From: Parabacteroides faecis
GTDB taxonomy: Bacteria > Bacteroidota > Bacteroidia > Bacteroidales > Tannerellaceae
DNA: 48,606 nucleotides
Assembly (NCBI RefSeq): GCF_014647375.1
Contig: NZ_BMPB01000024.1
Span: 1-48,606, forward strand
Reading direction: 5' to 3'
The notes under the pieces are model-generated. The model saw only the letters and a list, made by a program, of their open reading frames with translations, made no database searches and had not been told where the DNA came from. Both the position numbers and the translations under genes were made by a program. Below are positions 22,397-41,503 of this stretch, piece by piece. Within the stretch, counting starts at the first letter, position 1. Each line of letters begins with the position of its first letter.

Positions 22397-22404
22397 TACT
22401 TTTG
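22397..22404 (+). promoter_or_regulatory. Antisense -7 element in the susC leader (PUL1)
   Basis: TACTTTTG on the strand opposite susC matches TAnnTTTG. Its first base lies 27 bases upstream of the susC start codon, almost the same as in PUL2. It would start an RNA near 22410 running toward the anti-sigma gene. No convincing -33 box at 19-21 bases. Confidence 0.45.
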
Positions 22405-22409
22405 GGTAT

Positions 22410-22426
22410 TTGTGACTAAGTCACAA
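22410..22426. promoter_or_regulatory. Perfect 17-base palindrome in the susC leader (PUL1)
   Basis: TTGTGACT and AGTCACAA form 8-base arms around a single central A. It lies 40-56 bases upstream of the susC ATG. It could be a protein-binding operator or, in RNA, a 7-base stem at the 5' end of the proposed antisense transcript. PUL2 has no counterpart. Confidence 0.5.
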
Positions 22427-22480
22427 GTATTGACAATTAATAGGTCGGGGAAGGTGAGAGTTCTCCGGCCTTTGTTTTGT
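22410..22480 (+). ncRNA. Candidate antisense small RNA opposite the susC leader (PUL1)
   Basis: A -7 element (22397-22404) is followed after 37 bases by a hairpin with 11-base arms (22442-22452 and 22461-22471, two G-U pairs) and the T-rich tail TTTGTTTTGT. Together they define a plus-strand RNA of about 70 bases lying entirely in the 5' leader of the minus-strand susC gene. The arrangement mirrors PUL2. In Bacteroides, short cis-antisense RNAs such as DonS repress susCD operons controlled by ECF sigma/anti-sigma pairs; this candidate has the same place and form. Its existence is an inference from the DNA. Confidence 0.55.
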
Positions 22481-22556
22481 CACTACATTTCTGATAAATT
22501 TTAGTGTTTTTCAGGTTTTCTTCATAAGCATTCTTTTTTGTTAGACATATTCTTTC

Positions 22557-31367: not shown

Positions 31368-32555
31368 ATGAGCACAGAAAACAAAAACTCTTTAGAACTG
31401 AAGTACGGCTGTAACCCTAACCAGAAGCCGTCGCGCATTTTTATGCAGCAGGGTGAATTGCCTATTGAGGTATTGAACGGCCGTCCCGGATACATCAATT
31501 TCATGGATGCCTTTAATAGTTGGCAGTTGGTAAAAGAACTGAAAGAGGCTACCGGACTGCCTGCAGCCGCATCTTTCAAGCATGTCAGTCCGGCCGGTGC
31601 AGCCGTAGGGATCGAGATGAGCGATACGTTGAAGAAAATCTATTTTGTAGACGATCTTCCGCTTACTCCTCTGGCAACTGCTTATGCCCGTGCCCGTGGT
31701 GCGGATCGTATGTCTTCTTACGGCGACTTTATCGCTTTGAGCGATACCTGCGACGAAGCGACGGCCCGTCTGATCAACCGCGAAGTATCGGATGGCGTCA
31801 TTGCCCCCGACTATACTCCTGAAGCATTGGAGATTCTGAAAAATAAACGGAAAGGTACTTATAATGTCATCAAGATCGATCCGGCTTATAAACCGGCTCC
31901 GGTAGAACATAAGGATGTTTTCGGTATCACTTTCGAACAGGGACGTAACGAGATCAAGCTGGACGAAAGCCTGCTGACCAATATCCCGACCCAAAATAAA
32001 GATTTCCCGGAAGAGGCCAAACGTGACCTGATCATAGCCCTTATCACCCTGAAGTATACGCAGAGTAATTCTGTTTGCTATACAAAGGACGGACAGGCTA
32101 TCGGTATCGGTGCCGGCCAGCAAAGTCGTATCCACTGTACCCGCCTGGCTGGAAACAAGGCTGATATTTGGTATCTGCGCCAGCATCCGAAAGTAATGAA
32201 CCTGCCCTGGGTTGAAAAGATCCGCCGTGCGGACCGCGATAATACCATCGACGTATATATCAGCGACGACCATGAAGATGTATTGGCAGACGGTATCTGG
32301 GAACAGTTCTTTACTGAAAAGCCGGAAGTACTGACTCGCGAAGAAAAACGTGCCTGGTTGGATACTATGAACGGTGTATCTTTAGGTTCGGATGCTTTCT
32401 TCCCGTTCGGTGACAATATCGAACGTGCTCATAAGAGTGGCGTGGAATATATCGCACAGGCAGGCGGCTCGGTCCGTGACGACCATGTGATCGATACATG
32501 TGATAAATATGGTATAACCATGGCGTTTACAGGCGTACGGTTGTTCCATCATTGA
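31368..32555 (+). CDS. Stand-alone AICAR formyltransferase (PurH C-terminal type)
   Basis: This 395-residue enzyme matches the AICAR transformylase half of PurH, which adds a formyl group to AICAR in the ninth step of purine synthesis. The catalytic K71 and H72 are present in SFKHVSPAG, and the folate-binding part continues through QSNSVCYTKDGQAIGIGAGQ and the C-terminal ITMAFTGVRLFHH. The N-terminal IMP cyclohydrolase (MGS-like) domain of bifunctional PurH (about 510 residues in all) is absent, and the protein begins cleanly with its own ATG, so it is not a truncation within the window. It follows the RfbD-like gene by 20 bases. Bacteroidales often also carry a full purH elsewhere; whether this strain does cannot be seen. 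Confidence 0.88.
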   Translation: MSTENKNSLELKYGCNPNQKPSRIFMQQGELPIEVLNGRPGYINFMDAFNSWQLVKELKEATGLPAAASFKHVSPAGAAVGIEMSDTLKKIYFVDDLPLTPLATAYARARGADRMSSYGDFIALSDTCDEATARLINREVSDGVIAPDYTPEALEILKNKRKGTYNVIKIDPAYKPAPVEHKDVFGITFEQGRNEIKLDESLLTNIPTQNKDFPEEAKRDLIIALITLKYTQSNSVCYTKDGQAIGIGAGQQSRIHCTRLAGNKADIWYLRQHPKVMNLPWVEKIRRADRDNTIDVYISDDHEDVLADGIWEQFFTEKPEVLTREEKRAWLDTMNGVSLGSDAFFPFGDNIERAHKSGVEYIAQAGGSVRDDHVIDTCDKYGITMAFTGVRLFHH

Positions 32556-32579
32556 TTGTTGCTTTTTCAGGAATAGATA

Positions 32580-32630
32580 AAGAAACCAGTGGCAGTAAAT
32601 ATATTGCTGTCACTGGTTTCTTCATTTTTA
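32580..32630 (+). terminator. Terminator after the AICAR formyltransferase gene
   Basis: AAGAAACCAGTGGCAG (32580-32595) pairs with CTGTCACTGGTTTCTT (32607-32622) with one mismatch, around an 11-base AT-rich loop. CATTTTTA follows. A strong end to the barrel/rfbD/AICAR transcript. Confidence 0.85.
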
Positions 32631-32687
32631 TACTATATAGGTTGTAAATGATTCGTATAAAATTACTCCGTGTAATTGTATTTGTAT

Positions 32688-32695
32688 TATATTTG
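32688..32695 (+). promoter_or_regulatory. -7 element of the PUL2 sigma gene
   Basis: TATATTTG matches TAnnTTTG and ends 15 bases before the ATG at 32711. Its position downstream of the alternative ATG at 32648 supports the shorter protein. Confidence 0.45.
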
Positions 32696-32710
32696 TGTAG
32701 GAGATACTTT

Positions 32711-33253
32711 ATGGAAAAAGATGTATTATATATAAAAGAACTTGCCCTGGGAAGTCATGACGCCTTTAAAAGGCTGTTTATGAACTATTTTCCCAAAGTC
32801 AAATATTTTATAGAGCATCTTGTTAAATCGGAGATAATAGCAGAGGAATTGGCCCAGGATGTATTTATGAAAATCTGGGAACGCCGGGAGCGGCTTGTCA
32901 CTTTAGAATCATTTAATTCGTATGTTTACCGGATGGCCAAGAATGCCGCACTGAACCACTTGCGGCATAAATATATAGAAGAGAGTTATCTGGAAGATTA
33001 TGAGGGGGAAACCGAACAGACTATTGAAGGTGATTTGTATGCCCGTGAAATGGAATTGCTGGAAAAACTAACTGTAGGTCGTATGCCGAAGAAGCGTAAG
33101 GCTATCTATGAAATGAGTAGAAGGGAAGGTTTATCGAACGACGAAATAGCAATACGGATGGGTATATCCAAGAAGACAGTAGAGAACCACTTGAATCTGG
33201 CATTGAAAGAAATCAGAAAGACCTTGCTTTTGTTTGCTTCTTTTTTCATCTGA
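32711..33253 (+). CDS. ECF-type RNA polymerase sigma-70 factor (PUL2)
   Basis: This 180-residue sigma factor should activate the adjacent susCD operon. Region 2 contains AEELAQDVFMKIWERRERL and the YRMAKNAALNHLRHKY melting segment. Region 4 (about 115-170) contains MPKKRKAIYEMSRREGLSND and the recognition helix KKTVENHLNLALKEIR. The open frame could start at 32648, but that adds 21 hydrophobic residues, and a -7 element lies inside the extension, so the ATG at 32711 is chosen. The anti-sigma gene follows 74 bases later. Confidence 0.93.
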   Translation: MEKDVLYIKELALGSHDAFKRLFMNYFPKVKYFIEHLVKSEIIAEELAQDVFMKIWERRERLVTLESFNSYVYRMAKNAALNHLRHKYIEESYLEDYEGETEQTIEGDLYAREMELLEKLTVGRMPKKRKAIYEMSRREGLSNDEIAIRMGISKKTVENHLNLALKEIRKTLLLFASFFI

Positions 33254-33327
33254 AAATCTATTAAATAATTTTTTGGGTGCAGGACCGTTTTCGTGTGTCT
33301 TAATTTATAGATAACGGAAATTGTACC

Positions 33328-34305
33328 ATGTCAAGAGTAGATCAGATTATAGAAAATTTCTTCAGGAAAGATCAGCCGGAAGATATCCGGAAACATTTCG
33401 TTCGTTGGTTTTTCCATCCTTCTTCATCGAAAGATAAAGAGGAAACCCTGCACGTACTTTGGGATACTCTCCAGGTAAAAGCAGATTCATCGACCGAGCG
33501 TTCATATGAAACTGTCGAAAGACGGTTGGGATTCTCCAAACGGAAGGGAATACATAGTTCTTTCCGGAAATGGGGGCAGGTGGCTGCATTTCTGCTTCTT
33601 CCCTTATTGGGTGCGTGGGTATCCTGGTTATATCTACAGGATCGTCCTGTAGAGGAACTGGCTCTGGTGGAATGTTTTGTCCCGAAAGGAGAAATCCGGA
33701 ATATCGTATTACCGGACCATTCGGTTGTCATCATCAATTCCGGGAGTACGCTTTTTTACCCGAGTGAATTTAAAGGTAAGAACCGTGATATCTATCTGAG
33801 CGGAGAAGCCAAATTTATGGTTACTCCTGATAAGAAGAAACCTTTTATCGTTAAGACCAACGATCTCTCGGTCGAGGCATTGGGTACTGTATTCAATATA
33901 TCCTCTTATCCGGACAGGGAGAAGGTGACAGCTTCGCTTGCGGAAGGGAAGATAAAAGTTGATATAAGGTCCAGTCATGAAACATTTATTCTTGACCCTG
34001 ATGAACAAGTTGTATTTGACAAGAACACAGGGGTAAGCGAACGGAAGCGTGCCCGGATGGATTACGTCCTTGCCTGGGAAAAAGGACAGATGATTTTCCA
34101 GAGTGCCTCTTTGTATTCCGTTATAAAAGAGATTGAACGACATTATGGTGTACAGGTTTATCTGAATGCCAGGGATTTGAATGATGAAAAGCTAACGGTT
34201 AAATTCCTGCATAATGAGACATTGGAGGAAGTTCTCTATACGTTGAAGCAAATTGTGGCAGGATTCAAATATAAAATAGAGGGAGACAAGGTATACATTT
34301 ATTAA
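33328..34305 (+). CDS. FecR-family anti-sigma factor (PUL2)
   Basis: This 325-residue inner-membrane anti-sigma factor has a cytoplasmic N-terminal part (about 1-80), one membrane segment (about 83-103, AAFLLLPLLGAWVSWLYL), a periplasmic FecR domain (about 115-215, with GEIRNIVLPDHSVVIINSGS and VEALGTVFNI), and a C-terminal DUF4974 domain (about 250-325) ending YKIEGDKVYIY. It is diverged from the PUL1 copy in the cytoplasmic part, as expected if each pair recognises its own sigma factor. The 136 bases to susC hold the second antisense RNA candidate. Confidence 0.93.
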   Translation: MSRVDQIIENFFRKDQPEDIRKHFVRWFFHPSSSKDKEETLHVLWDTLQVKADSSTERSYETVERRLGFSKRKGIHSSFRKWGQVAAFLLLPLLGAWVSWLYLQDRPVEELALVECFVPKGEIRNIVLPDHSVVIINSGSTLFYPSEFKGKNRDIYLSGEAKFMVTPDKKKPFIVKTNDLSVEALGTVFNISSYPDREKVTASLAEGKIKVDIRSSHETFILDPDEQVVFDKNTGVSERKRARMDYVLAWEKGQMIFQSASLYSVIKEIERHYGVQVYLNARDLNDEKLTVKFLHNETLEEVLYTLKQIVAGFKYKIEGDKVYIY

Positions 34306-34328
34306 TTATTAAAACAGAGAGAACCATG

Positions 34329-34400
34329 AAAAAAAGGACCGGAGAGTCTTGTTTGCAGCTCAACTCCCCGGTTTGAAATCAGAACACTTTTTATAGGCTT
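34329..34400 (-). ncRNA. Candidate antisense small RNA opposite the susC leader (PUL2)
   Basis: On the minus strand a TATTTTTG -7 element (34413-34406) is followed 33 bases later by a hairpin with arms ACCGGGGAGT (34372-34363) and ACTCTCCGGT (34347-34338), 10 pairs with one G-U, and then CCTTTTTTT. That is a textbook intrinsic terminator, pointing away from susC. The predicted RNA is about 72 bases and lies entirely within the 5' leader of the plus-strand susC gene. The layout repeats that of PUL1 and fits the DonS-type cis-antisense repressors described in Bacteroides. The RNA itself is inferred. Confidence 0.6.
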
Positions 34401-34405
34401 AATTA

Positions 34406-34413
34406 CAAAAATA
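34406..34413 (-). promoter_or_regulatory. Antisense -7 element in the susC leader (PUL2)
   Basis: Read on the minus strand this is TATTTTTG, a match to TAnnTTTG. Its first base is 28-29 bases upstream of the susC ATG, matching PUL1. No good -33 box is evident at the usual spacing. Confidence 0.45.
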
Positions 34414-34441
34414 GTATTCAACAACAAAATTAATATTATTC

Positions 34442-37400
34442 ATGAAAACGAATAACCTTTTATCTTGTAAATATTTATGCAAAATATTTATATATCTGTT
34501 TCTACTTTTCATAACCACTCATATATATGCACAAACGGTGAATATAACCGGACAAGATATCACATTGGCAAAGGTGTTTGAAGAGATTGAGAATCAAACA
34601 AAGTTGTCGGTGGCTTACAGCGAATCGACTATTGATAAGCATCATCGGGTATCTGTCGATATCAGGAATAAACCGGTGGATCAGGCTATGGATGTCATAC
34701 TGAGCGGTACTGGGACTACTTTTTCTATTGAGGGAAAAAAGATCCTTATCAAACCGGTTCCGGTCATTCAGCAAGAGACGAAGAAGGTTGTAACCGGAAC
34801 TGTTACGGATGAATTTGGAGAACCTGTTATCGGAGCCAATGTCGTGGAAAAAGGTACGAGCAATGGGACCGTTACCGATATCGACGGTAACTTTACTCTG
34901 CAGATTTCCGGTAATTCCGTATTGCAGGTCTCTTATATCGGATATATGCCGAGTGAAATTTCAACGAAGAACCGGGAACAGGTGAAAGTAAACCTGAAAG
35001 AAGATTCTCAAACGTTGGATGAAGTTGTCGTTGTCGGTTTCGGAACACAGAAGAAAGCAAACCTGACAGGGGCAGTCGGTTCTGTGAATATGGATAAGGT
35101 CTTGGGTGATAGGCCCGTTACCGGACTGGGGTCGGCTTTGCAGGGTGCGATACCCGGATTTACGGCCTCTACTTCAGCAGCTCCGGGAGGAGAAAACAAG
35201 TGGAATATCCGTGGGTTGGAATCTATTACCGGAGGTGCTCCGCTTATTTTGGTTGATAATGTGGTGTTTAATGATCTCTATTTGCTTAATCCGGCAGATA
35301 TTGAAAGTGTATCTGTCTTGAAAGATGCCTCTTCCGCAGCCATTTACGGTGCGCGTGCCTCTTTCGGTGTTATTCTGATCACCACCAAAAAGGCAAAGAA
35401 GAACGAAACGCTGACGATCAATTATAACAACAATTTTGCTGTCTCTAAAGTCATGAATATACTGGAACCGGCATCTCCAGCCGATTTTATCAGGACATTA
35501 CAGGAAGGTGGTTACACATCTATCTGGTCGGGGCAAAACCTGGAGACGTATATGGGGTTACTATCTGAATATAACGGGAATCCTTCTGCTTATCCGGCAG
35601 GATGGACAGAAGTGAACGGTACGAAGTATTTCCTGCGGGAAAACTCCGTCATGAAAGACATGTTTGAACCAGCTTGGAAACAAACACATAATATTTCGGC
35701 CCAGGGAGGAAGCGAAAGAATCAAGTACCGTTTGTCTTTGGGATATACCGATGAAAATGGGATTCTGGTAACTAATAAGGATGCGTTTACGCGAACGAAT
35801 GTGACCGGTTATGTGAGTGGTGATATAACTTCATGGCTGACTACCTCTTTGGATATCAGTTATAATAATGGAAATAAGACATATCCGTTCATGGATGGTT
35901 CAAGTGAGTTGGGGAATTTATGGAAAACAAATCTTCCATCTTATCATCCGACAGGATCATTGCCTTACGGTACGGATGGGGAAGAGTATCTGGTTATGAC
36001 TCCGGCGAATGTAATCAGGCAAACAGATAAAAAGCGGACAGTAACGGATAACACCCGCATCCTTTCCCGTTCGGTGTTGAAACCGTTCGATGGATTTGAA
36101 GCTGTGCTCGAGTATTCATATCAGGCAAGTTTTCAGGATATTGAATCGTATGCGAATTATTTCGAAATGCATCAGGGATTGGCAGAAAGTATCAAACCTT
36201 CCACCTCCACAACTCCTTTTACCCAGGAAAGAAAGACAACGAAATATACGACGATAAATGCTTTTGCCACTTATAATAAGACATTTATCAATACCCACAA
36301 CATTTCCGCTCTTGCCGGGTTTAACCAGGAAAAGTCAGATTACAGATATTTGTATTCACAGGCTTATAACATGATCAGCAATGAATTGCCTTCGCTCAGT
36401 GGTTCGGATGGCGTGACGCCTCCGAAGACAAAGGACGATTATACGGAATATGCATTGCGAAGCGGATTCTTCCGGGCAAGTTATAATTACATGCAACGTT
36501 ATTTTGTGGAAGTGAACGGGCGTTACGACCTTTCTTCTAAATTCCCGAAGGATTACCGGGGAGGATTTTTCCCTTCTGTCTCTGCAGGCTGGAGTATCGT
36601 GAATGAGCCTTTTATGGAGAAAGCGTCGTCCTTCTTATCTGCCTTGAAATTAAGAGGTTCTTACGGGACGTTAGGTAACCAGAACATCAGTGCCTACAGT
36701 TATTATCCTACAATGAGCGTGTCGAATGCTCCCTGGATATACGGCAATAATGTACCGAAGACACTGGAGGCTCCGGGTATGGTCCGTGCTAATTTTACCT
36801 GGGAGAAAGTGGAGTCGGTTAATGGTGGGCTTGATTTCGGTTTCCTGAATAACCGGTTGACCGGATCGTTCGATATCTACCGCCGCAATACGATCGGTAT
36901 GTTAGGCCCTTCGGAAGAATTTCCTTCTGTGGCAGGTGCAAAAGCCCCTTTGCAGAATGCGGCTGACCTTAAATCGAAAGGATGGGAGTTGTCTTTATCC
37001 TGGAGAGACCGGATCGGTAAGGTGGATTACGGTGTAGCTTTCAATCTTTATGATTCCCGTTCTTATATCACTCGTTATAAAAACGATACGGGATTGTTTT
37101 ATGACCGTAACGAAGCACAGGACGGTAAACGTTACCGGATCGGTATGGAGATAGGAGAAATCTGGGGATATGTGACGGACGGATTCTATACCGCTGATGA
37201 TTTTATGGATAACGGGGCCTTGAAAGAAGGTGTGGTCCGGATCAACGGAGTCACTTCCCATGTCGGCGATATCAAATATAAGAATTTGCGGGATGACGAG
37301 AATAGTGTTAATGTGATCGATACAGGCGACAATACGGCAGATAATCCGGGTGACCGGAAGATTATCGGGAATAGCCAGGCACGTCTCCAGTATGGCCTGA

Positions 37401-37858
37401 ACGGGTATGCGAACTGGAAAGGTTTCGGCCTTTCGTTTATTCTCCAGGGAGTAGGGAAGAGGGATGCCTGGATTGGCGGCGAGATCACTTTCCCGATGTC
37501 TAATCAGTACGGTACGGTTTATAAGCATCAGGTAGGCCAGATCTGGACAGAAGATAATCCGAATGCTTTTTACGGGCGTATCTATGAAAATGCCGGTAGT
37601 TCACAGGGGGCGAATCAACGTATCAGTGATAAATTCTTATACAATGCAGCTTATCTGCGGGTGAAGAATATTACGTTCAGCTATACCGTGCCGGATAAAT
37701 ATCTGCATGCGATCCGCCTGAAGAACCTGAAAGCTTTTGTGAGTGGCGAGAACCTGTTTACATTCGATCATTTACCGACAGGTATCGATCCGGAGAATTT
37801 GAGTTGGAATTATCCATATTCGAGAACGATTTCATTTGGTATCAACTTTAATCTATAA
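34442..37858 (+). CDS. SusC/RagA family TonB-dependent transporter with STN domain (PUL2)
   Basis: This 1138-residue outer-membrane transporter has a signal peptide (about 8-30, ending IYA), an STN domain (about 35-105), a carboxypeptidase-regulatory-like domain (about 118-200, VTGTVTDEFGEPVIGANVVE), the plug with VVVGFGTQKKANLTGAVG and VLKDASSAAIYGARASFGVILI, and a long barrel ending in YSRTISFGINFNL. It works with the adjacent SusD. The STN domain links it to the FecR/ECF pair upstream. The protein is clearly related to the PUL1 SusC but diverged over the barrel, so the two should take different substrates; the sulfatase downstream suggests a sulfated glycan here. Confidence 0.95.
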   Translation: MKTNNLLSCKYLCKIFIYLFLLFITTHIYAQTVNITGQDITLAKVFEEIENQTKLSVAYSESTIDKHHRVSVDIRNKPVDQAMDVILSGTGTTFSIEGKKILIKPVPVIQQETKKVVTGTVTDEFGEPVIGANVVEKGTSNGTVTDIDGNFTLQISGNSVLQVSYIGYMPSEISTKNREQVKVNLKEDSQTLDEVVVVGFGTQKKANLTGAVGSVNMDKVLGDRPVTGLGSALQGAIPGFTASTSAAPGGENKWNIRGLESITGGAPLILVDNVVFNDLYLLNPADIESVSVLKDASSAAIYGARASFGVILITTKKAKKNETLTINYNNNFAVSKVMNILEPASPADFIRTLQEGGYTSIWSGQNLETYMGLLSEYNGNPSAYPAGWTEVNGTKYFLRENSVMKDMFEPAWKQTHNISAQGGSERIKYRLSLGYTDENGILVTNKDAFTRTNVTGYVSGDITSWLTTSLDISYNNGNKTYPFMDGSSELGNLWKTNLPSYHPTGSLPYGTDGEEYLVMTPANVIRQTDKKRTVTDNTRILSRSVLKPFDGFEAVLEYSYQASFQDIESYANYFEMHQGLAESIKPSTSTTPFTQERKTTKYTTINAFATYNKTFINTHNISALAGFNQEKSDYRYLYSQAYNMISNELPSLSGSDGVTPPKTKDDYTEYALRSGFFRASYNYMQRYFVEVNGRYDLSSKFPKDYRGGFFPSVSAGWSIVNEPFMEKASSFLSALKLRGSYGTLGNQNISAYSYYPTMSVSNAPWIYGNNVPKTLEAPGMVRANFTWEKVESVNGGLDFGFLNNRLTGSFDIYRRNTIGMLGPSEEFPSVAGAKAPLQNAADLKSKGWELSLSWRDRIGKVDYGVAFNLYDSRSYITRYKNDTGLFYDRNEAQDGKRYRIGMEIGEIWGYVTDGFYTADDFMDNGALKEGVVRINGVTSHVGDIKYKNLRDDENSVNVIDTGDNTADNPGDRKIIGNSQARLQYGLNGYANWKGFGLSFILQGVGKRDAWIGGEITFPMSNQYGTVYKHQVGQIWTEDNPNAFYGRIYENAGSSQGANQRISDKFLYNAAYLRVKNITFSYTVPDKYLHAIRLKNLKAFVSGENLFTFDHLPTGIDPENLSWNYPYSRTISFGINFNL

Positions 37859-37864
37859 AGAGTT

Positions 37865-39784
37865 ATGAAAAAGAATATTATATATCTGGCTTCTGCCTTT
37901 CTGCTTTCTTTTACCGGGTGTAATAATGACTATCTGGAATATTTCCCTAAAACCGAGTTGACGGAAGAGACGGCTTTTGTCACTTATGAGAACTTCAAAA
38001 CATATACGTGGGGTTTGTATAGTATATTCCAGAATTCAGTGATGCGGCAATATCTGCAGCCGGACGCTGCGGTAAATACGGTTGTGGAAGGTGATGTGTA
38101 TGCCAATTATCTGTATAACAGTAACAGTACGAATACACAGCATAACAACTGGCAATGGGATAATATCACGTCTACGATGAATATGGACGACAGTTGGAAT
38201 TTCGATTATATCCGTCGGGTGAATATTATGTTGCGAAATATCGATAAGTCGGAAATGAATGAGACCGATAAAGAACATTGGCGTTCGGTAGGGCTTTTCT
38301 TCCGGGCATATCGTTATTACGATCTGCTGGCTCGTTATGGAGGTGTGCCCTGGCTGGAAGATGTGGTTGGCGACGAAGACGAAGATATATTATATGGTAA
38401 ACGTTCATCCCGGGATGAAGTGGCTGGGAATATCCTTCGCGACCTGCAATATGCCGAGGGGCATATTAAAGAGAATGGGGAAGGAGTGAATACAAATACG
38501 ATCAACCGTGATTGTGTAAGGGCTTTATTATCCCGTTTCTGCTTATTCGAAGGAACCTGGCGCAAATACCATGCTTTGGGTGGCAGTGAAACCTATTTGT
38601 CCGAATGTGAACGGGTTTCGAAATCGTTGCTCGATGCTTATCCTTCGATTGCCGCAAATTATGTTGATTTGTGGTCTTCGGATAATCTTTCCGGTTTTCC
38701 GGGAGTCATCTTGTACAAACAGTTTGAAAACGACCTGATCATGACTACGTTCCCGAGAGCGGAGCGAGGTGGTTCGCAGAAGTATGGGATGCATGCCCGT
38801 ACGGTCGGAAGATATCTTTGCCAGGATGGCAAACCGATCTCGACCAGTAGTTTATATAAAGGAAAAGGTGCGGATGCAACTGTAAATGATGAGTTTTATA
38901 ATCGTGATCATCGTTTATACTGGCGTTGTATTCCGCCTTACAGAACCAACAAGACAAATGGAAATCCGGTGACGGAGGATAATAAGAACTCCTGGTGGAC
39001 AGAAGGTATGGATGAAAAGGACCGTTATTTTATTGATTATATGAATAAGATCAATGATGCCGACCATCAGTTCCCGTTGTACACCTGGCAACCTCAGTTT
39101 CTGTCTCGTGTTCCGATGATACAAACATCTCCCAACTCCTGGGGACCGATGCGTAATTATGGTGGTTATTATTTTTACATGTTCTATACTACCTACAATG
39201 AAGCGGCTATCCAGGCCGGCGGACAAAAAGCGGTTACCGATATGCCGATCTTCCATATTGAAGAGATCATGTTGAATTATGCCGAGGTCATGTATGAGCA
39301 GAATAAGTTCAGTCAGGCAATAGCCGATCTGACGATCAATAAATTGCGTACCCGTGCCAATGTTGCCCCGATGGTTGTTTCTGCTATCAATGCGTCATTC
39401 GATCCGGACAGGGATCCGCAGGTGGAACCGCTTGTCTGGGAAATCCGTCGTGAACGTATGGCCGAGCTGATGGGTGAAGGCTTTGGTTTCTATGATATCC
39501 GCCGTTGGAAGCGGGCTGATTATTTTATTAACCAGCGTCCTCTGGGTGTCAGGGTTGCTGCTGATGAGGTAGGTGAGTATTTTGGTGCCGGTTCTGTTTT
39601 TGTACAGGCTTCGGATGTGAATGCGGCAGCATCTGTTACTTCCGATGATATAGGCCGTGTAGTTTGTGTCGGAGATTATGTTTCACAAGGAAAAGGGTGG
39701 AAAGATTATTTCTATCTGAATCCGATACCTAAAACACAGTTGATCCTGAACACGAACCTGGAACAGAATCCGGGATGGAACTGA
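37865..39784 (+). CDS. SusD/RagB family nutrient-binding lipoprotein (PUL2)
   Basis: This 639-residue surface lipoprotein partners the SusC six bases upstream. The lipobox LLSFTGC gives the lipid-bearing cysteine at residue 19. N-terminal helices include FFRAYRYYDLLARYGGVPWL. The C-terminal RagB domain has IEEIMLNYAEVMYEQNKFSQ, INKLRTRANV and EIRRERMAELMGEGFGFYDIRRW, with the family ending LNTNLEQNPGWN. It is somewhat longer than the PUL1 SusD, with insertions in the ligand-binding middle (about 330-450). Confidence 0.95.
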   Translation: MKKNIIYLASAFLLSFTGCNNDYLEYFPKTELTEETAFVTYENFKTYTWGLYSIFQNSVMRQYLQPDAAVNTVVEGDVYANYLYNSNSTNTQHNNWQWDNITSTMNMDDSWNFDYIRRVNIMLRNIDKSEMNETDKEHWRSVGLFFRAYRYYDLLARYGGVPWLEDVVGDEDEDILYGKRSSRDEVAGNILRDLQYAEGHIKENGEGVNTNTINRDCVRALLSRFCLFEGTWRKYHALGGSETYLSECERVSKSLLDAYPSIAANYVDLWSSDNLSGFPGVILYKQFENDLIMTTFPRAERGGSQKYGMHARTVGRYLCQDGKPISTSSLYKGKGADATVNDEFYNRDHRLYWRCIPPYRTNKTNGNPVTEDNKNSWWTEGMDEKDRYFIDYMNKINDADHQFPLYTWQPQFLSRVPMIQTSPNSWGPMRNYGGYYFYMFYTTYNEAAIQAGGQKAVTDMPIFHIEEIMLNYAEVMYEQNKFSQAIADLTINKLRTRANVAPMVVSAINASFDPDRDPQVEPLVWEIRRERMAELMGEGFGFYDIRRWKRADYFINQRPLGVRVAADEVGEYFGAGSVFVQASDVNAAASVTSDDIGRVVCVGDYVSQGKGWKDYFYLNPIPKTQLILNTNLEQNPGWN

Positions 39785-39835
39785 TCGGTGTAAGGAAAAC
39801 CTTAGATTAAATTATATAGATTAGACATGTACCCT

Positions 39836-39884
39836 GAGGTTGTATCGAAAGTTGGGACATTCCACAAACTTTTGGTACAACCTC
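39836..39884 (+). terminator. Hairpin between susD and the sulfatase gene (PUL2)
   Basis: The 18-base arms at 39836-39853 and 39867-39884 pair over their whole length in RNA (16 Watson-Crick and two G-U pairs) around a 13-base loop. The run TTTTTTA about 12 bases later is a weak terminator tail. Like the PUL1 hairpin in the same place, it may partly end transcription after susD or protect the susCD message. Confidence 0.6.
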
Positions 39885-39952
39885 GGTTTGTATGTGTTTT
39901 TTATCTGATATATTTGTATTTCATAGAGTGGGAGATATTTAATAAATGTAGT

Positions 39953-41503
39953 ATGAATAGAAAGTTATCATTATCAAATATAGCATTATTGTCTGTTGGC
40001 ATTTCATCTATGACGTGTCAGGCCCAAGCTCCGGCAAAGCCGAATGTGATTTATATCTATGCCGACGATATGGGGAAAGGAATGTTGTCCGCCTACGGTC
40101 AACGTCATTTTACGACCCCCAATATTGACCGAATGGTTACTAAAGGAACCTCTTTCGACAATGCCTATGGTTGTATGTTGTCGGCTCCGGCAAGAGCCTC
40201 ATTGCTGACAGGCTACCATGATTGTCATCCGGATAAGTGGGTGATATCGAGGGGAGGTAAGTTCATTCCGGCAACGGATGATTTGTCATCGATACCTGCT
40301 GTGGAAAAGGAGATAAACGCTGAGGATATCCTGTTGGGTAAAGGTGATTATTATCTTCCCCAGGTGTTTAAACAGGCTGGTTATGTAACTGCCGAGATCG
40401 GTAAGCTGGAATGGGGGTTTACGGCTACCCGTAAACAGATGAAGGAGCATGGTTGGGATTATTATTATGGTTATCTGGATCATGTCCGCTGTCACGGATT
40501 CTATCCACCGTTCCTGTTCGACAACGGAGAGATTGTCACGATCGAAGGAAATACCCATAAGAATTGTGGAAAGAGTATAGAGAATGAAACGGAAACCGCT
40601 TACCTGGAGCGATGGAACAGGAACGGGAAAGCGGTTTATTCGCAGGATCTCTTTTTAGATAAGATACTGTCTTTTATCCGTGCGAATAAGGATAAACCTT
40701 TTTTCCTGTTTCACCCGACACAGTTGCCGCACGGACCGGTCGCTATCCCTGCGGTGCATCCGGAACTGGCGAATAATCCGGAACTGACACCGATAGAGAA
40801 AGAATATGCTTCCATGGTCAAATTGCTGGATGATAATGTGGGAGCGATCATGAATGAACTCCGCCGATTGGGACTGGATAAGAATACGATCCTTGTTTTT
40901 GCTGCCGATAATGGCCATGAAACGTATTATTCGCAGAAAGGACGGTGTGAGAAACCATACAGGAATATGCAAACAGGAACGCTGTTCGACGACTATACGG
41001 ATAAATATTACAGCGACCTGGCAGGAGATATCTTTAACGGTAATGCCGGTATGGCAGGTCTGAAACGGAGTAATCTGGATGGCGGCGTACATATTCCGCT
41101 GATCTTTTATGGGGAAGGGATAATCCCTGCCGGGATAAAGAGTCAGGAACTGGTTTCCAATTATGATTTTTTGCCGACAATGGCAGAGATGCTTCAGGTA
41201 TCGCTTCCGGTAAAGAAGGATGGCATTTCTTTCCTCCCTACTCTGGTAAAAGGAGAAAAAATACCGGCCGGGCGATATGTGGTATTCGGTTCCAACTACG
41301 GTCCGGGCATTCTGACCGGCGAAGGCTGGAAGCTGCGTTATTACCGGGCAAAAGATGTCTTTGAATTGTACAACCTGAAAGACGATCCGCAGGAGCGTCA
41401 TGACTTGTCAGGGCAATATCCTGAAAAGGTAGAAAAACTAAAGAAGATACTACTGAAGGAATGCGATGAAAACATTGACAATGGAATCAACAAAGCCGGA
41501 TAG
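39953..41503 (+). CDS. Sulfatase, S-type (type I)
   Basis: This 516-residue exported sulfatase would remove sulfate esters from a glycan. A signal peptide (about 1-24) precedes the alkaline-phosphatase-like fold. Metal ligands D38 and D39 are in IYADDMG. The formylglycine motif is SAPARASLLTG with serine, S77, at the modified position, so it is an S-type enzyme and needs an anaerobic sulfatase-maturating enzyme (anSME), which is not in the window. Other landmarks are HPTQLPHGP and VFAADNGHE. The open frame reaches back to 39827, but that extension overlaps the hairpin after susD and delays the signal peptide; the ATG at 39953 is chosen. It is the only enzyme gene of PUL2. The substrate class (mucin, chondroitin, algal) cannot be told from sequence alone. 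Confidence 0.92.
   Translation: MNRKLSLSNIALLSVGISSMTCQAQAPAKPNVIYIYADDMGKGMLSAYGQRHFTTPNIDRMVTKGTSFDNAYGCMLSAPARASLLTGYHDCHPDKWVISRGGKFIPATDDLSSIPAVEKEINAEDILLGKGDYYLPQVFKQAGYVTAEIGKLEWGFTATRKQMKEHGWDYYYGYLDHVRCHGFYPPFLFDNGEIVTIEGNTHKNCGKSIENETETAYLERWNRNGKAVYSQDLFLDKILSFIRANKDKPFFLFHPTQLPHGPVAIPAVHPELANNPELTPIEKEYASMVKLLDDNVGAIMNELRRLGLDKNTILVFAADNGHETYYSQKGRCEKPYRNMQTGTLFDDYTDKYYSDLAGDIFNGNAGMAGLKRSNLDGGVHIPLIFYGEGIIPAGIKSQELVSNYDFLPTMAEMLQVSLPVKKDGISFLPTLVKGEKIPAGRYVVFGSNYGPGILTGEGWKLRYYRAKDVFELYNLKDDPQERHDLSGQYPEKVEKLKKILLKECDENIDNGINKAG

Follow-up and report, generated by a model that had tools for sequence, protein, structure and literature searches.

According to the sections of the literature considered here, antisense RNAs associated with PULs are known from B. 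fragilis and B. theta (PMC7366714, PMC10994844, PMC11697453), and such units are described as divergently encoded. In B. theta, both negative and positive correlations of these RNAs with their PUL have been reported (PMC10994844). The mechanism of DonS was still called unknown in a paper of 2025 (PMC11697453), and the functional characterisation of PUL antisense RNAs was requested in one of 2024 (PMC10994844). So far, these RNAs are known by their position and one repression experiment. As judged from its sequence, the feature opposite the susC leader of PUL2 in Parabacteroides faecis is likely an antisense RNA gene of this published PUL-associated (DonS) kind; it lies opposite a susC homologue, possesses its own promoter and terminator as sequence, and has sigma and anti-sigma genes adjacent to it.

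The window analysed, a stretch of 48,606 nucleotides, is contig 24 of a genome of 6.66 Mb in 33 contigs. On its plus strand, PUL2 contains adjacent genes for an ECF sigma factor (32648-33253; Pfam Sigma70_r2 and Sigma70_r4_2) and an anti-sigma factor with FecR and FecR_C domains (33328-34305; PF04773 and PF16344), followed by genes for a susC-like receptor opposite the antisense unit (34442-37858; STN, CarbopepD_reg_2 and Plug), a susD-like protein (37865-39784) and a sulfatase (39827-41503), the last two likewise assigned by Pfam. Ahead of the sigma gene, a 19-pair hairpin at 32580-32638 is most likely a terminator; the Rfam model FuFi-1 matched it below threshold (21.7 bits, cut-off 59.6). 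An Rfam search of positions 32500-36000 returned no family at the antisense locus itself at E values up to 1.

The 136-nt gap between the anti-sigma gene and susC (34306-34441) carries on its minus strand the box TATTTTTG (34413-34406), followed after 33 bases by a hairpin (34338-34372) and seven T residues (34329-34335), exactly as the preliminary description had stated for the interval 34413-34329. The stem pairs 34372-34363 with 34347-34338 (10 pairs, including six G-C and one G-U), encloses the 15-nt loop TGAGCTGCAAACAAG (34348-34362), is flanked on its 5' side by GATTTC (34375-34380) and is separated from the T-run by CC (34337-34336). A second box, TAATTTTG, is present at 34432-34425, and on the plus strand a leader mini-ORF read from the sequence, MKKRTGESCLQLNSPV (34326-34376), extends across the hairpin, its A-run coinciding with the T7 tail. 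The ORF list, together with the Pfam assignment of the neighbouring genes to the plus strand, agrees with the earlier statement that the terminator has no minus-strand gene to end. Among 1000 dinucleotide shuffles of the gap, the stem was equalled in four and the stem plus T-run in one, compared with 95 containing TAnnTTTG by itself, an element which occurs 49 times in the whole window at an expectation of 39.3. The terminator exceeds chance; the box alone does not.

Anti-sigma genes of the entire genome were collected by a FecR_C search, in which 150 of 182 candidates were scored (32 unscored) and 112 matched; 82 anti-sigma-sized genes were kept, and 30 matches in susC-sized frames were dropped. 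The gaps following these 82 genes comprise 81 genome loci plus PUL1 of the window, the gene following each anti-sigma gene being chosen by size and start rather than individually confirmed as susC. An antisense terminator is found in 62 of the 82 gaps and a sense terminator in five, at shuffle expectations of 0.35 and 0.1, respectively (20 rounds), leaving 20 gaps devoid of an antisense terminator; note that the loci are related, and the family counts are not independent. Because the first terminator finder accepts G-U on the scanned strand, the stem test was redone with a strand-symmetric score, which revealed a strong stem in 66 of 78 gaps, four loci lacking a usable 60-nt gap having been dropped. 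Read on the antisense strand, these stems contain 76 G-U (G-T) mismatches and nine A-C mismatches, which correspond to sense wobble pairs (51 loci versus four), and a T-tail of at least six T within the ten bases past the stem occurs in 53 of the 66 on the antisense strand and in one on the sense strand. The mostly antisense orientation of wobble pairs and T-tails indicates that the hairpin is shaped for antisense folding and termination. PUL1 of the same window has this unit as well (22397-22471), consisting of the plus-strand box TACTTTTG (22397-22404) and a hairpin (22442-22471) with T-rich tail, and its leader contains a minus-strand mini-ORF of four codons, MKKT (22511-22525). PUL2 is not an isolated case, and about 60 such antisense units are predicted in this genome.

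At the start of the gene following the anti-sigma gene, CAAANNT-ATG, which equals an antisense TAnnTTTG over the start codon, is found in 49 of 78 gaps. The same arrangement occurs in one of 602 ORFs of at least 120 amino acids, drawn from the window and a further 800 kb of DNA, and in none of nine susC genes without an anti-sigma leader; these belong to a set of 30 susC loci taken from 56 listed, and the other 21 of the 30 have such a leader. The start-codon box accompanies the terminator, being present in 47 of 62 loci with and two of 16 without it. In this genome and its relatives, 20 of 76 loci have TTG 17-20 bases ahead of the box, as compared to 0-4 loci at other spacings (mean below 1), while the full TTTG of the -33 region is unenriched at a spacing of 17-20 bases (two of 76 loci). 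The housekeeping promoter is described as TAnnTTTG plus TTTG near -33, the -33 part being missing in another member of the Bacteroidetes (PMC7366714, in the part considered). Upstream of the box, a sense motif GTATTAAC beat three letter-shuffled motif runs; it takes the form (A)GTATTAAC or AGTATTCAA and often lies 6-13 nt ahead of the box, for example at 34413-34421. A box directly over the start codon would also suit the rather unlikely view that transcription itself acts, the antisense promoter and its polymerase hindering or insulating the operon at the susC start and the RNA being a by-product. The divergent encoding described in the available literature and the rarity of sense intrinsic terminators after the anti-sigma gene are consistent with this explanation, which is opposed by the properties of the hairpin loops treated below.

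Relatives were compared at two levels. In another species of the genus (G022), from which the best 30 anti-sigma loci were taken, the stem is found in 23 loci, with a T-tail on the antisense strand in 21 and on the sense strand in one, and the antisense box is present in 20 of the 23. Of 30 loci taken from 12 genomes that belong to other families of the order, 28 could be read (L193 and L215 were left out); 19 of these contain the stem, ten with an antisense and two with a sense T-tail, and seven of the 19 have the box. Stemless loci (seven of 30 and nine of 28, respectively) were left out of the box, loop and mini-ORF counts. Comparing 15 pairs of stems between G022 and G000 over 177 positions, 44 had changed on both sides without loss of pairing, ten had changed on one side and none was broken; these stems were preselected as best, and orthology is unclear for several of the pairs. 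The nearest SusC relatives of PUL2 itself are 44-50% identical and not clear orthologues either; among the eight listed, seven had a readable leader (L137, whose start was misread, was left out), and these show a hairpin with T-tail in two cases, a hairpin with weak tail in one and none in four.

A subtype pattern derived from PUL2, consisting of GATTTC, a CCGG-stem and a long loop, yields 12 matches in ten of 39 genomes of the genus, and its reversed form none in the same 39 genomes. As judged by eye from the translations, 11 of the 12 are flanked by a FecR-like end on one side and by a SusC-like start on the other, and L250 was excluded as spurious; three of the 11 loci belong to this genome and one to each of eight other species. 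Their common antisense letters are mainly TTGAATACT (34413-34421 on the minus strand in PUL2), GATTTC, the stem and the T-run, and the alignment shows weak covariation (RNAalifold, term -0.46). A box CAAANNTATG at the susC start is present in nine of the 11 loci, PUL2 being among the two without it. Conservation of the hairpin together with the -7 box in relatives had been suggested as a check, which came out divided: the PUL2 subtype recurs in eight further species of the genus, and the box at 34413-34406 proposed as -7 element is not among the letters shared in its alignment. By its place relative to the CAAANNTATG boxes, TAATTTTG rather than TATTTTTG matches the position of the susC-start box in related loci and is more likely the -7 box of PUL2. 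The predicted RNA would then extend from a 5' end near 34420 to 34329 on the minus strand (about 91 nt), instead of starting near 34400 and measuring about 72 nt as initially proposed; since the box underlying the shorter version is unconserved in the subtype, a length of about 90 nt is more likely. The range given in the part of the literature considered is 78-128 nt (PMC7366714).

PUL2 is atypical for its family, with a 15-nt loop lacking the short-loop signature and no antisense box over its own susC start codon. This, together with the CC between stem and T-run and a standard fold test in which the isolated 78-nt stretch is unremarkable (z -1.39, with 16 of 200 shuffles equally good), would fit a decayed or chance copy that makes no RNA within an otherwise real family. 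We regard such decay as improbable in view of the single equal among 1000 shuffles for stem plus T-run and of the presence in PUL2 of the subtype features GATTTC, stem, T7 and TTGAATACT. A general hairpin scan, limited to loops of 3-8 nt, omits the PUL2 hairpin.

The loops of the family hairpins differ from those of ordinary terminators. They were compared for 57 of the 66 stems (nine were dropped by T-tail and A-C filters) with 99 ordinary gene-end terminators, to which the T-tail filter was applied but the A-C filter was not. Loops of 6-7 nt make up 42 of 57 in the family versus 15 of 99 ordinary ones, and the forms TT(N3-4)G or C(N3-4)AA, which are reverse complements of each other and place a UU-motif on the antisense hairpin in one case and on the sense hairpin in the other, 24 of 57 (17 of them distinct) versus one of 99. 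These forms were defined after inspection of the family loops and then tried in relatives, where they recur in nine of the 21 G022 hairpins that have a tail and in six of ten such hairpins from other families; eight of the 21 G022 loops are identical letter for letter to loops of this genome. TTGGCG or CGCCAA is present in the loop of eight of 57 family hairpins and none of 99 ordinary terminators, a number reached in none of 2000 within-loop shuffles. The YUNR loop motif as such is unenriched (31 of 57 versus 13 of 24 in a first control) and was discarded. Seven of the 11 PUL2-subtype loci keep a GATTGGCGTC loop containing UUGGCG or its complement, and PUL2's own loop TGAGCTGCAAACAAG contains neither. 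The letters of the subtype loop stay while the sense frame shifts between species, which indicates that the loop is kept as RNA. Both this persistence and the distance in loop size and letters from ordinary terminators, repeated in relatives, argue against the antisense RNA being a mere by-product of transcription. As a separate observation by eye, the leaders of L074, L087 and L092 contain a second hairpin nearer to susC repeating the letters of the terminator loop (sense TTTGGCGA), so that one antisense RNA would show CGCCAA twice. Furthermore, the antisense loops of L038, L074, L077, L087 and L092 (CGCCAA) are complementary to those of L057 and L091 (TTGGCG), which makes RNA contact across different PULs conceivable.

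A search for sense motifs between the anti-sigma gene and the hairpin returned TGCCTATGAA, a mini-ORF motif carried by 40 of the 82 loci in this genome and by 20 of the 42 loci from relatives that have the stem. The first in-frame stop is no more than 18 nt from its ATG in 37 of 39 loci of this genome (one of the 40 was dropped from this count) and 19 of 20 in relatives, as compared to eight and nine early stops in the other two frames here and five and eight in relatives. The bases -14 to -12 from the ATG are A in 50-52 of 60 loci, and the same positions are rich in A (0.54-0.59) across 490 ordinary ORF starts from this genome. In 55 of 59 loci (L107 was dropped), the frame is made up of AUG and zero to four additional codons. 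Its ATG lies about 27 nt ahead of the hairpin (median of 31 loci). It is probable that the TGCCTATGAA frame is translated, mostly into 1-5 codons. Reading TGCCTATG as the ECF -10 box of susC was ranked second to this, because an enrichment of early stops is confined to the frame of the ATG and the A-tract is spaced as in ordinary translation starts; AACCTT, farther upstream, is unaccounted for by translation. In the PUL2 subtype, the frame starts with ATGAAAAAAAG(A/G) in ten of 11 loci and with ATGAGAAAAAG in the remaining one, is preceded by an AGGAGG-like site in nine of 11 and mostly extends over the hairpin. The PUL2 frame MKKRTGESCLQLNSPV lacks the main consensus and has only a weak AGGAGG-like site. 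A conserved leader peptide was ruled out, as the frame shifts between species though the loop letters stay.

For B. theta PUL24, mapping placed a 5' end of susC mRNA 291 nt upstream, within the anti-sigma gene (PMC11501099, in the part considered), showing that leaders may reach across a region of this kind; if general, a start of this type would make both mini-ORF and hairpin part of the susC mRNA. Alternatively, the hairpin might belong to the sense mRNA as leader structure or attenuator and resemble an antisense terminator in looks only, a proposal to which the UU-motif on the sense side of some loops and the probably translated mini-ORF ahead of the hairpin would lend themselves. With T-tails favouring the antisense strand by 53 to one, wobble pairs by 76 to nine, and antisense promoter boxes over the start codons, this explanation appears very improbable.

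We consider it probable that the PUL2 feature is the gene of a cis-antisense RNA of about 70-90 nt, which faces the leader of susC in a PUL with ECF sigma and anti-sigma genes, is made from a promoter of the housekeeping type close to where susC begins and ends at a terminator of its own; its action is envisaged as follows. The stretch of leader spanned by the RNA would begin close to the start of susC and finish immediately ahead of the hairpin, in PUL2 with the tail of the RNA meeting the start of the mini-ORF. The RNA would pair with the leader of the susC mRNA, the mirrored hairpin loops presumably touching first (kissing). Pairing would cover the mini-ORF as well as the leader almost as far as the start of susC, and would lower susC expression from leaky or fading transcription, whereas strong ECF-driven transcription would outrun it. 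What the DNA itself contributes to this reading is a promoter-like box, a terminator, strand polarity, a predicted family of about 60 members and a subtype in other species; transcription of the antisense RNA is inferred from these features, and repression of PUL2 is suggested by analogy with the literature, where correlations go both ways.

In R1 (CopA) and ColIb-P9 (Inc RNA), an antisense hairpin is mirrored in a leader with a short ORF before the regulated gene. More tentatively, the PUL units may form a multi-copy module of this type in dozens of PULs per genome, composed of a tiny translated frame, a kissing hairpin loop of 6-7 nt and an antisense promoter that overlies the start codon of susC. 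Translation of the leader, and with it that of susC, would be stopped by the antisense RNA. The loop would present UUNNNG on one strand and CNNNAA on the other, sometimes as UUGGCG, and the PUL2 subtype would represent a version with a longer frame running across the hairpin. The in-frame stops, the A-tract distance and the loop kept across the frame shift suggest such a plasmid-like switch; the presence of the mini-ORF motif in only 40 of 82 loci and of the whole set of terminator, box and mini-ORF in 30 weighs against it, and we hold it to be possible, albeit somewhat doubtful. In any case, the loop signature, the mini-ORF and the promoter on the susC start codon make the mechanism testable by a few point mutations, and the anatomy of the module allows such units to be looked for from DNA alone across the order. 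New here are the loop signature and the leader mini-ORF that precedes the hairpin at roughly half the loci; the available parts of the PUL antisense literature searched, with the founding Cao 2016 outside their scope, contained no mention of either, which does not imply absence in print.

Compared with known systems, the family hairpins share with ordinary intrinsic terminators of the same genome a stem followed by a T-run, but end no gene and differ in loop size and letters. The likeness to R1 and ColIb-P9 consists of the mirrored hairpin, the leader ORF and, in part of the PUL family, a UUGGCG loop, a motif also present in the loop of the antisense target in ColIb-P9 (title of a work cited in PMC10724649). 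Unlike those systems, the PUL units are multi-copy, lack a replication gene, have susC as downstream gene and possess a leader ORF of mostly 1-5 codons; PUL2's own loop is without UUGGCG, and kissing and coupling are predicted for the PUL units by comparison. Closest by description are DonS and the other PUL antisense RNAs, which are short, occupy the same site opposite or divergent to susC and have their own promoter and terminator. The initial assignment to this kind is strongly supported by position, the 62 of 82 gaps, strand polarity and the subtype in eight species; the named box is unconserved in the subtype, and about 90 nt is a more likely length than 72. The number of units is likewise in the tens per genome, with 32 annotated in B. 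theta (PMC10994844, in the part considered) and 62 terminators predicted here.
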